A stretch of DNA of 64,000 nucleotides from Modestobacter roseus. Lineage in GTDB: Bacteria > Actinomycetota > Actinomycetes > Mycobacteriales > Geodermatophilaceae. Location of the stretch: NCBI RefSeq assembly GCF_007994135.1, contig NZ_VLKF01000001.1:248001-312000 (forward strand), read 5' to 3'. The notes beneath the pieces were generated by a model that saw nothing but the letters and a program-made list of their open reading frames with translations, ran no database searches and had not been told where the DNA came from. The stretch's first letter is position 1, and each line of letters opens with the position of its first letter. This document shows, piece by piece, positions 61,604 through 64,000 of this stretch. The translations under genes were made by a program, and so were the position numbers.

Positions 61604-62623
61604 CTACCCGCGGGGTGCGCTCGGGCGGCCGGCGCGGACGCCGGCCTGCGGCTCGGCGTCGTGCGACTCGGTGACGCTCGGCTCGGTGACGTTCGGCTCG
61701 CGCTCGGCGCGGGCGAGCTCCTCGGCCTCGGCGGCCAGCGCGTCGGCCGACTCCTGGGCGCGGTCCTTGCGGTACTCGCGGAACGAGTGCGCGACCGCGG
61801 CGGCCCAGACCAGGTAGATGACCACGTAGACGCCGTAGCGCACCGGGTCGGCGGCGTCGATCCAGTCGCTGCGCAGCAGGGTGCGGGTGTTGGTCAGCAC
61901 GATCATGCCGCCGACCAGCGACCCGAGCAGCCGTGGCGGGACGTGCCGGACGAGCCACGCCGCGATCGGCGCGGCCAGCAGACCACCGGCGAGCAGGACC
62001 CCAACCCAGGCGAAGTCGATGCCCTGGCTGCCGAGGGCGAGCAGGAAGCCCAGGCTCGCGGCGATGGCGACCAGGAACTCGGACGTGTCGATGGAGCCGA
62101 TCACCTTGCGCGGCTCCATCCGGCCGCTGGCCAGCAGGGCGGGGGTGCCCACCGGACCCCAGCCGCCGCCGCCGGTGGCGTCGACGAAGCCGGCGACGAG
62201 GCCGAGCGGGCCCAGGAAGCGCTTGCGCACCGGCTTGCCCAGGTTGCGCCGGTCGATGCCGCGCAGGGTGAACCGGACGAGCAGGTAGACGCCCAGCGAC
62301 AGCAGGATCAGCGACATGACCGGCGCGGCGAGCTCGGTGGAGAGGTTGGACAGCACGGTGGCGCCGACGAACGCGCCGATCGCGCCGGGCAGGCCGACCT
62401 TGGCGACGACCTTCCAGTCGACGTTGCCGAACTTCCAGTGCGACAGGCCGGAGGCGAGGGTGGTGCCGATCTCCGCCAGGTGGATGGTGGCCGACGCCGC
62501 GGCAGGGTTGGTGCCGATGGCCAGCAGCATGGTCGTCGACGTGACGCCGTAGGCCATGCCGAGGCTGCCGTCGACGAGTTGTGCGCCGAACCCGACGAGG
62601 GCGAGCAGGACGAGGGTCTTCAC
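61604..62623 (-). CDS. TauE/SafE-family sulfite exporter-like permease
   Basis: A 339-residue membrane protein with eight or so helices and a hydrophilic Glu/Pro-rich C-terminal tail (about residues 285-339). Helix one is followed by QLVDGSLGMAYGVTSTTML, and later FVDATGGGGWGPVGTPALLASG (near residue 145) is the second family signature. TauE/SafE proteins export sulfite, sulfoacetate or related organosulfonates. The GTG lacks a strong ribosome site. An upstream leader peptide (62711-62818) of the type linked to sulfur genes supports a sulfur role. Confidence 0.9.
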   Translation of the reverse strand: MKTLVLLALVGFGAQLVDGSLGMAYGVTSTTMLLAIGTNPAAASATIHLAEIGTTLASGLSHWKFGNVDWKVVAKVGLPGAIGAFVGATVLSNLSTELAAPVMSLILLSLGVYLLVRFTLRGIDRRNLGKPVRKRFLGPLGLVAGFVDATGGGGWGPVGTPALLASGRMEPRKVIGSIDTSEFLVAIAASLGFLLALGSQGIDFAWVGVLLAGGLLAAPIAAWLVRHVPPRLLGSLVGGMIVLTNTRTLLRSDWIDAADPVRYGVYVVIYLVWAAAVAHSFREYRKDRAQESADALAAEAEELARAEREPNVTEPSVTESHDAEPQAGVRAGRPSAPRG

Positions 62624-62710
62624 GGGAGGGTGCTCCGGGATGGTGGCGCCGGGCGCGACGGGACGCGCGTCAGGCTGGCTGGACGGGGGACGCCGCGAAC
62701 GGCGCGGAGG

Positions 62711-62818
62711 TCAGCGGCCCGGACAGGTTGCGGTGGCGACCCGGAGCAGGTCGACGTGCAGACGGCTCACCAGGAGCTCGCCCGGCAGGGTGGCCGGGAG
62801 CAGGGCCGTCGTCGTCAC
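62711..62818 (-). CDS. Putative sulfur-type leader peptide upstream of the TauE/SafE gene
   Basis: A 35-codon reading frame (VTTTALLPATLPGELLVSR at the start, then LHVDLLRVATATCPGR) ends 87 bases before the exporter start on the same strand. The RxHVDLxRVxxxxC ending matches the leader peptides that NCBI annotates as putative leader peptides upstream of sulfate, cysteine and other sulfur genes in actinobacteria. The single late Cys codon would allow cysteine-dependent ribosome pausing to control the downstream gene. GC-rich inverted sequences lie in the gap (62624-62710), but a precise attenuator hairpin is not certain. Confidence 0.75.
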   Translation of the reverse strand: MTTTALLPATLPGELLVSRLHVDLLRVATATCPGR

Positions 62819-62876
62819 GGCGACATTCCTACCACTTTGGTGCAGATTGCGTGCAACCCGCTCCCATGCAGTGGGA

Positions 62877-64000
62877 TCAGGGGCGCAGGACGTCGTTGCG
62901 GATGGTCGCCCAGGCGGTCAGCCCGCCCACGAGCATGACCCCCGCGCACGCCCACAGGGCGCGCTGGTAGCCGGCGCTGAAGCTCACCTCGTCGACCTGG
63001 CCGCCGGCGGCGAGCCCCACCGCCACCGGCAGCGCCGCGACCGCCAGCAGGCCGGCGGCCCGGGCCACCGCGTTGTTCACCCCGCTGGCCACGCCGGCCA
63101 GGTGGTCGGGGGCGGCGGCCAGCACGGTCGCGGTCAGCGGCGCCACCAGCGCCGACATGCCCAGCCCGAACAGCACCGACCCGGGGAACACCGCCGTCCA
63201 GTACCCGCTCCCGGCGTCCACGGCCGACAGCCAGAGCAGCCCGGCCGCGGCGACCACCGGGCCCACCGTCATCGGCAGCCGGGGGCCGATCCGCTGGGCG
63301 AGCGCGCCGGCCCGCGCCGAGAGCAGGGTGAGCAGGATGCTCGGCGGCAGCGACGCCGCGCCGGCGAGGGTGGCGCTGTAGCCGAGCACCGTCTGCAGCT
63401 GGAGCACCAGGAAGAAGGAGAAGCCGCCGAGCGCGCCGTAGACGGTGAGGGTGCTCAGGTTGGCGCCGGTGAACTGGCGGTCGGCGAAGACGCCCAGCGG
63501 CAGCATCGGGTGGGCGGCCCGCCGCTCCCGGACGACGAACGCGGCCGCCGAGGCCACCCCGATCGCGGCCGCCGTCCACACCGCGGCGCTGCCCGGGTCG
63601 TCCCCGGCGGCGATCAGCGCGTAGGTCACCCCGCCCAGCGCCACGGCGCCGGTGGCCGCGCCCAGCACGTCGAACCGGCCGGAGGCGTCCGGGTCCCGGC
63701 TCTCCGGCACGTGCCGGACGGCGACCACGACGACCGCGACCGCCAGCGGCACGTTCACCCCGAACACCCACCGCCAGCTCACGGCGTCCACCAGGAACCC
63801 GCCGACGAACGGCCCGACCAGGCCGGCGATGCCGCCGAGTGCCGACCAGAGACCGATGGCGCGGGCCCGGTCGTGCGGGCGGAAGGAGGACTGCAGGATG
63901 GCCAGGCTGCCGGGGGTGAGCAGCGCGCCGCCCACGCCCTGCAGCGCCCGGGCGGCCACCAGTTGCGCGGTGTCCTGCGCGAGCCCGCACAGCAGGGAGG
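62877..64000 (-). CDS. MFS transporter, DHA2-like, truncated by window end
   Basis: At least 374 codons are visible. The start lies beyond 64000, and the reading frame continues to the last base without a stop. The visible part has about nine or ten helices and DHA2-type motifs: ARALQGVGGALLTPGSLAIL, RARAIGLWSALGGIAGLVGP, then a WRWVFGVNVP segment, and a RRAAHPMLPLGVFADRQF loop between halves. It resembles drug/proton antiporters of the EmrB/QacA type. The substrate is unknown. It is followed by the leader-peptide gene of the exporter, 58 bases downstream. Confidence 0.9.
   Translation of the reverse strand, partial: SLLCGLAQDTAQLVAARALQGVGGALLTPGSLAILQSSFRPHDRARAIGLWSALGGIAGLVGPFVGGFLVDAVSWRWVFGVNVPLAVAVVVVAVRHVPESRDPDASGRFDVLGAATGAVALGGVTYALIAAGDDPGSAAVWTAAAIGVASAAAFVVRERRAAHPMLPLGVFADRQFTGANLSTLTVYGALGGFSFFLVLQLQTVLGYSATLAGAASLPPSILLTLLSARAGALAQRIGPRLPMTVGPVVAAAGLLWLSAVDAGSGYWTAVFPGSVLFGLGMSALVAPLTATVLAAAPDHLAGVASGVNNAVARAAGLLAVAALPVAVGLAAGGQVDEVSFSAGYQRALWACAGVMLVGGLTAWATIRNDVLRP

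Follow-up and report, generated by a model that had tools for sequence, protein, structure and literature searches.

A conserved leader peptide with a fixed TGT cysteine codon precedes the tauE transporter gene in Geodermatophilaceae and is a putative cysteine-responsive attenuator

A short open reading frame belonging to a known family of leader peptides lies upstream of a TauE/SafE-family transporter gene (hereafter tauE) in Modestobacter roseus, and it precedes nearly every tauE orthologue examined in the Geodermatophilaceae. The frame was found in a 64,000-nucleotide stretch of the M. roseus genome, referred to as the window. Its C-terminal part, with the conserved motif HVDLLRV, is held at the level of the peptide, and the cysteine that follows at a fixed position is encoded by TGT against the codon usage of the surrounding genes. 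We consider it probable, on the strength of these sequence patterns, that the leader would serve as a cysteine-responsive, ribosome-mediated attenuator of tauE. The leader family itself is known; what is new here is tauE as a target throughout one bacterial family, together with the rule that the fixed cysteine is a TGT codon.

Table 1. Features of the leader–tauE locus, in coordinates of the window.
Feature	Position	Strand	Basis
TauE/SafE-family (PF01925) membrane transporter gene, 339 codons, GTG start at 62623	61604..62623	-	Pfam
C-rich, G-poor spacer from leader stop to tauE, 47 C and 23 G of 87 nt; candidate Rho-loading region	62624..62710	-	composition; role inferred
GGAG Shine-Dalgarno of tauE, 13 nt before GTG	62633..62636	-	sequence
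Leader peptide ORF, GTG start, TGA stop, 35 codons, MTTTALLPATLPGELLVSRLHVDLLRVATATCPGR	62711..62818	-	ORF list and NF042934 match over cut-off
Invariant Cys codon TGT, 12th residue (motif His = 1), 32nd of ORF; proposed stall codon	62723..62725	-	codon counts
Conserved HVDLLRV codons	62738..62758	-	pN/pS 0.12 over 93 leaders
CUCC in LLR codons, predicted pairing with tauE Shine-Dalgarno	62743..62746	-	pairing P>0.8 in 16/21 genus members
GTAGGAAT box, a possible extended -10 element, its T followed at 13 nt by the first start codon	62825..62832	-	box conservation; promoter role inferred

The leader stop and the tauE GTG are separated by 87 nt on the minus strand, which is the arrangement that an earlier note on this DNA had described. 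The interval 62624–62876 considered there takes in the ORF, its promoter side and the spacer, the ORF proper being the interval in Table 1. The note had also read the HVDLxRV...C ending as that of a putative leader-peptide family. In agreement with that reading, the NCBIfam profile NF042934 (cis_reg_atten, 'putative leader peptide') matches the frame with an E value of 7e-8 and 31.9 bits against a curated cut-off of 27; judged by this score, the leader ORF is beyond chance. The product of the downstream gene matches PF01925 with an E value of 4.3e-42 and 144.8 bits (gathering score 32.6). The observation made in the earlier note is confirmed, and its interpretation of a leader before tauE is supported.

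That interpretation had been staked on the frame being kept in close relatives and on its substitutions being biased toward synonymous ones, and both were found. All 23 genomes of the genus that were searched contain NF042934 matches over the cut-off. Twenty-one of them have a tauE orthologue (the two without it are ~70% complete), and in each of the 21 the leader stands 72–92 nt upstream. Across the family, tauE is present in 95 of 112 genomes, and the leader precedes 93 of the 95 orthologues examined, in eight genera, with 67–129 nt between leader stop and tauE start. The family search gave 96 tauE matches; one at a contig edge (G083) was dropped before the count. Named loci of Geodermatophilus, Blastococcus, Modestobacter and Klenkia carry the leader in 27 of 28 cases. 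Outside the Geodermatophilaceae it precedes tauE in 4 of 52 named loci, three of them in Gordonia, and in a separate set, which may overlap with the former, in 2 of 29 orthologues. Since most orthologues outside the family lack the leader (48/52 and 27/29), tauE can do without it. In one of the two family members without the leader (G059, locus L102), the tauE GTG stands 13 nt after a promoter-like box, where the start codon of the leader would normally be. Leader loss with the same 13-nt arrangement applies to locus L311.

Substitutions in the 93 tauE leaders are strongly biased toward synonymous changes in the HVDLLRV codons (pN/pS 0.12), and the ratio is 0.46 over residues 1–12. It is 1.08 for the N-terminal codons just before the LLVxR block, and the other two reading frames of the wider block give 1.18 (+1) and 2.67 (+2). 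As the ratio is low in the leader frame only, these results argue that the frame is translated and that its end is constrained as a peptide. Selection of this kind would be expected as well of a small functional protein acting on its own; we find this very hard to credit, because its N-terminal part shows no constraint, its place before sulfur genes is the sole long-range feature, and searches of the leader peptide gave neither a Pfam domain match nor a transmembrane match.

The constraint on the cysteine reaches down to the codon. Residue 12 is encoded by TGT in 90 of the 93 tauE leaders, while the other cysteines of these leaders are TGC without exception, at residue 8 (69/69), residue 11 (7/7) and residue 15 (51/51); genes of the window, taken as a crude ORF set, use TGC and TGT in a ratio of 263 to 28. 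The same holds across the class. There, 128 loci were drawn from the top-scoring matches, hence not a random sample, and 127 of them were located (L180 was not) in 94 genomes and 39 genera, the genus tally resting on a locus-to-genome list compiled by hand. Residue 12 is cysteine in 123 of these 127 leaders, it is TGT in 122 of the 123, and TGT is fixed there in 38 of 39 genera. Genes downstream of the class-wide leaders contain 243 TGC and 31 TGT codons (TGT, 31/274), and comparison of residue 12 with this usage gives G = 520. A binomial count with genera collapsed gives a log10 P of about -34, a value that ignores shared descent.

Other cysteines of the class-wide leaders are TGC in 160 cases and TGT in 49. 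Residue 5, taken as an internal control, is TGC in 66 of 69, and TGT makes up 13 of 21 codons at residue 13 and 12 of 22 at residue 14. Where at least three cysteines occur from residue 9 on (30 leaders), residue 12 is TGT in all 30 and residue 11 is TGC in 13 of 15. The distance from this cysteine to the stop is 0–7 codons in 120 of 123 class-wide leaders and 2–3 codons in all 93 tauE leaders. A pyrimidine directly follows TGT in 114 of 123 class-wide leaders, and G in only three, which points to a small context effect, but the TGC codons of residue 5 stand in similar contexts, as judged by eye. Codons starting with G seem to be avoided after the TGT. A change from TGT to TGC is a single step, easy in GC-rich genomes, and yet TGT is kept; this argues for selection on the codon. 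The invariant TGT lends independent support to a putative role of the leader in cysteine decoding.

Codon choice was also inspected elsewhere in the motif. Class-wide, usage at H1, A10 and R13 is near background, and the idea that the histidine codons CAC/CAT mirror GTG/ATG starts was dropped, as these codons are at background (8 CAT vs 10.1 expected). An excess of AGC at serine 9 (71 vs 20.1 expected) was set aside because AGC to TCN takes two changes, so that inertia can explain it. Aspartate at residue 3 is GAT in 32 of 126 codons vs 7.4 expected, an effect below that of TGT. In the tauE leaders the valine at residue -3 (62768–62770 in the window) is GTG in 89 of 93, though at residues 2 and 7 the favored valine codon is GTC; considered as a possible internal start, this codon has a Shine-Dalgarno-like 4-mer ahead of it in only 2 of 93.

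TnaC is an arrest peptide that acts with Rho control of tna, and UGU is decoded by a G34–U3 wobble of the single tRNA-Cys. Two further views concern how peptide and codon might work. In the first, the leader would be an arrest peptide of the TnaC kind: the nascent HVDLxR would by itself halt the ribosome at codon 12, and the signal would be a small molecule, either free cysteine or a different sulfur compound, instead of tRNA charging. The retention of HVDLxR as amino acids, with near-background codons at H1, A10 and R13 and at a fixed distance from the cysteine codon, counts for this view because an attenuator based on a hungry codon alone could work with any peptide. A stop codon lies exactly at the cysteine position in two class-wide leaders (L151 and L254, among the 4 of 127 in which this cysteine is absent) and in locus L004 of the M. 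roseus genome, and a C-rich spacer adjoins the leader stop, as in the tna-type Rho control mentioned in the excerpted text of PMC1262725. Were the peptide alone to be read, though, the choice of TGT over TGC should be indifferent, and extra cysteine codons are frequent around position 12. The codon-level constraint on cysteine separates the window leader from TnaC, and both arrest and ligand are only putative here; we regard this view as unlikely. The second view is a two-layer sensor, which we put forward tentatively as a possibility of some weight: nascent xVDLxR would set the site at which the ribosome hesitates, and selection would have frozen UGU at residue 12 class-wide against GC pressure, the wobble reading making UGU the hungrier codon.

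The region upstream of the frame suggests how the leader may be expressed. A GTAG(A/G)(C/A)AT box accompanies 87 of the 93 tauE leaders, and in 80 of these the first in-frame start codon follows at 12–14 nt. This spacing fits a leaderless mRNA, with the reservation that the hexamer of the box, TAGACA or TAGGAA, is without the final T of TAnnnT, the Streptomyces consensus (PMC8079986, in excerpt). This spacing is equally consistent with a leaderless ribosome-loading or re-initiation module that would set basal tauE translation only, with no sensing, and a leader ahead of a gene can increase that gene's translation, according to the excerpted text of PMC4833913. Gaps of 67–129 nt are nevertheless long for coupling, and such a module leaves the fixed TGT, the sulfur regulon and the conserved peptide unexplained, which makes it in our estimation very improbable.

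The earlier note had further suggested a possible attenuator, and a structure for it was not confirmed. No intrinsic terminator or terminator-like site was found between leader and tauE, the fold energy is not unusual (z -0.17), and an Rfam scan of 62300–63100 returned nothing near a gathering score. RNAalifold consensus folds computed per genus gave no hairpin common across genera, as judged by eye. One complementarity is present: TGCTCCGGG in the window leader is complementary at every base to CCCGGAGCA, which lies around the tauE Shine-Dalgarno. The high predicted pairing probability in most members of the genus (Table 1) would suit an RNA-level switch in which the LLRV codons pair with the Shine-Dalgarno, any ribosome on the leader relieves the pairing, and the peptide is a by-product. 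The complementarity is, however, not above a null of synonymous-codon shuffles (genus mean z -0.34; other genera about 0 to +1.1), 58 of the 93 tauE leaders have CTG as the leucine codon, so that CUCC is missing from most other genera, and what is conserved is the peptide and not the nucleotide sequence. We judge a switch of this type improbable at the locus. An anti-Shine-Dalgarno RNA as the general reason for the conservation of HVDLLRV was rejected in view of the synonymous-codon null and the CTG codons of the other genera. Folds computed with a ribosome masking the leader freed the Shine-Dalgarno no more at the cysteine than at the stop (genus 0.08 vs 0.09), and cysteine-specific release appeared in no genus with more than one member; these folds neither support nor locate the output step.

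Over the 60 nt after the leader stop, the tauE set averages 54% C and 28% G, with C exceeding G in 93 of 93, and the class-wide set 44% C and 29% G, with C exceeding G in 121 of 127; at the matching distance, tauE orthologues outside the family that lack a leader have 29% C and 26% G. Upstream of the class-wide leaders C exceeds G in 53 of 127, but in the downstream coding sequence it does so in 113 of 126. This is the composition that a Rho site would have, which makes the spacer a candidate for that role.

The tie between the leader family and sulfur genes, asserted in the earlier note, is borne out by the neighbors of sister leaders. The whole 4.5 Mb genome contains four NF042934 matches at E<=1e-3 (scores were obtained for 150 of 164 first-look candidates), the window leader included. 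The other three precede a sulfite reductase–PAPS reductase pair, a rhodanese, and an ABC system with an NlpA-type lipoprotein. Class-wide, 110 of 126 downstream ORFs were submitted to Pfam, 16 apparent wrong-frame picks having been set aside by eye ahead of counting. Rhodanese (34), nitrite/sulfite reductase (15) and PALP, CysM-type (12) dominate, followed by luciferase-like monooxygenase (8), SBP_bac_5 (7), PAPS reductase (4), 2-oxoacid-ferredoxin oxidoreductase (4), sodium:dicarboxylate symporter (3), cysteine dioxygenase (3), sulfatase (2), TauD (1) and others. Sulfur metabolism accounts for most of the named enzymes, but for some of them, the oxidoreductase included, the connection is not obvious.

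Several sister loci deserve separate mention. In M. roseus, an Rrf2-family regulator gene (L258:14638-15459) lies directly upstream of the leader of the sulfite reductase–PAPS reductase genes. Locus L004 of the same genome (C1:4152985-4153026) keeps the motif with TGA at the cysteine position and precedes an ABC system of NIL-domain ATPase, permease and NlpA lipoprotein, and a similar ORF with TGA at that position (G021:C5:192005-192046) likewise precedes ABC-system genes for a NIL-domain ATPase and an NlpA lipoprotein. These may be a stop-codon version of the leader or its decay. Leaders before luciferase-like monooxygenases and ABC binding proteins (L133, L147, L148 and similar) probably relate to organosulfur use. 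Those before 2-oxoacid:ferredoxin oxidoreductase alpha subunits (POR; L227, L229, L232 and L237) could be linked by iron-sulfur demand.

For the cysteine-responsive attenuator that we favor, the steps would be as follows. Transcription probably starts at the GTG or a few bases from it, as the promoter spacing suggests, and the leader would thus be translated from the 5' end of the mRNA. HVDLLRV would be in the exit tunnel when the ribosome reaches UGU at codon 32, in this reading a hungry codon decoded by wobble at a fixed distance behind the conserved nascent peptide. With charged tRNA-Cys scarce, the ribosome would pause there, three codons before the stop, and the pause would raise tauE expression, most likely by one of two routes. 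A ribosome halted at this codon would extend to about the stop and might cover the beginning of the C-rich spacer, which would keep Rho off; or it would prevent pairing of the ribosome-binding site of tauE. When cysteine is abundant, the ribosome would complete the leader and depart, and tauE would be turned down. Weighing against this scheme are the absence of a terminator, the unremarkable fold, the negative outcomes of the synonymous-codon null and of the masked folds, the frequency of C over G in downstream coding sequence, the four class-wide leaders in which residue 12 is not cysteine, L004 with its TGA there, and the tauE orthologues outside the family that have no leader.

Comparison with known systems places the window leader within the NF042934 family, whose features it shares in its score over the cut-off, its HVDLxRV...C core and its form as a short ORF before sulfur genes; the family-wide tauE target and the TGT rule are additions of this analysis. 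Neither the TGT rule nor the HVDL leader peptide was found in the literature searched, a partial collection; Canestrari 2020 may mention the rule. Leaderless uORFs with cysteine codons in M. smegmatis are cysteine-dependent attenuators (Canestrari 2020, as cited in excerpts of PMC9031893, PMC13236596 and PMC9094748), and leaders with cysteine runs, including the cysA2 uORF, were seen translated in mycobacteria (PMC4633059, in excerpt). The window leader resembles these polycysteine attenuators, among which we count NF042936 (Ms4527A), in having a putatively leaderless transcript and a cysteine near the stop and in standing before sulfur genes, and leaders of the mycobacterial polycysteine type within our class-wide sample share the xVDLxR core and the TGT at residue 12. 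It differs in having a single cysteine and no contiguous cysteine tract, in its NF042936 score of 16.7 bits vs a cut-off of 45, and in that sequestration of the ribosome-binding site, although predicted in most members of the genus, is not supported beyond the null; tauE leaders in other genera of the family have 2–4 cysteines.

Leaders with cysteine-codon runs before cys operons were predicted by Seliverstov et al. 2005, who proposed Rho-dependent termination (PMC1262725). In the excerpted text of that work they are, like ours, without an obvious terminator, but they carry runs of cysteine codons and concern other species and genes (Mycobacterium, Propionibacterium, Bifidobacterium). The uORFC-8-2 motif before cysS in Rhodobacterales likewise has conserved cysteine codons in a uORF for which attenuation is proposed, with the differences that UGC dominates there and that an intrinsic terminator is part of the motif (PMC8632094, in excerpt). 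The lack of such a terminator between the window leader and tauE also sets the locus apart from a classical terminator attenuator. A reannotation of S. lividans lists eight leader peptides, none for cysteine in the excerpted text (PMC8079986).

As for what tauE may transport, 'exporter' is a family name only for this protein, and export of sulfite or sulfonate is putative. CysZ, a DUF81 protein, is described as the probable high-affinity importer of sulphate in Corynebacterium glutamicum (PMC1266029, in excerpt). A CysZ-like role judged from gene neighbors is not supported: for the flanking ORFs of the 29 tauE orthologues outside the family (61 of 84 ORFs, by Pfam), no sulphate-assimilation family appears among the 25 of 37 families listed. 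The M. roseus genome contains no CysT/W-type permease over the cut-off and one SulP-type ORF, so tauE need not be the sole sulphate route. Among PDB chains nothing matched the TauE protein meaningfully, the best hit being RibD with an E value of 0.0035.

A linkage of a TauE/SafE transporter to cysteine status across one bacterial family would give a lever on what the transporter moves, and if cysteine shortage switches tauE on, an importer would fit better than an exporter. Because a single codon is held at TGT in 38 of 39 genera next to a motif conserved as amino acids, it can be tested directly whether the cysteine attenuators of actinobacteria respond to the codon, to the peptide or to the two together. 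If the two-layer sensor is true, synonymous codon identity at one position would be the regulatory element, with the peptide as its amplifier.
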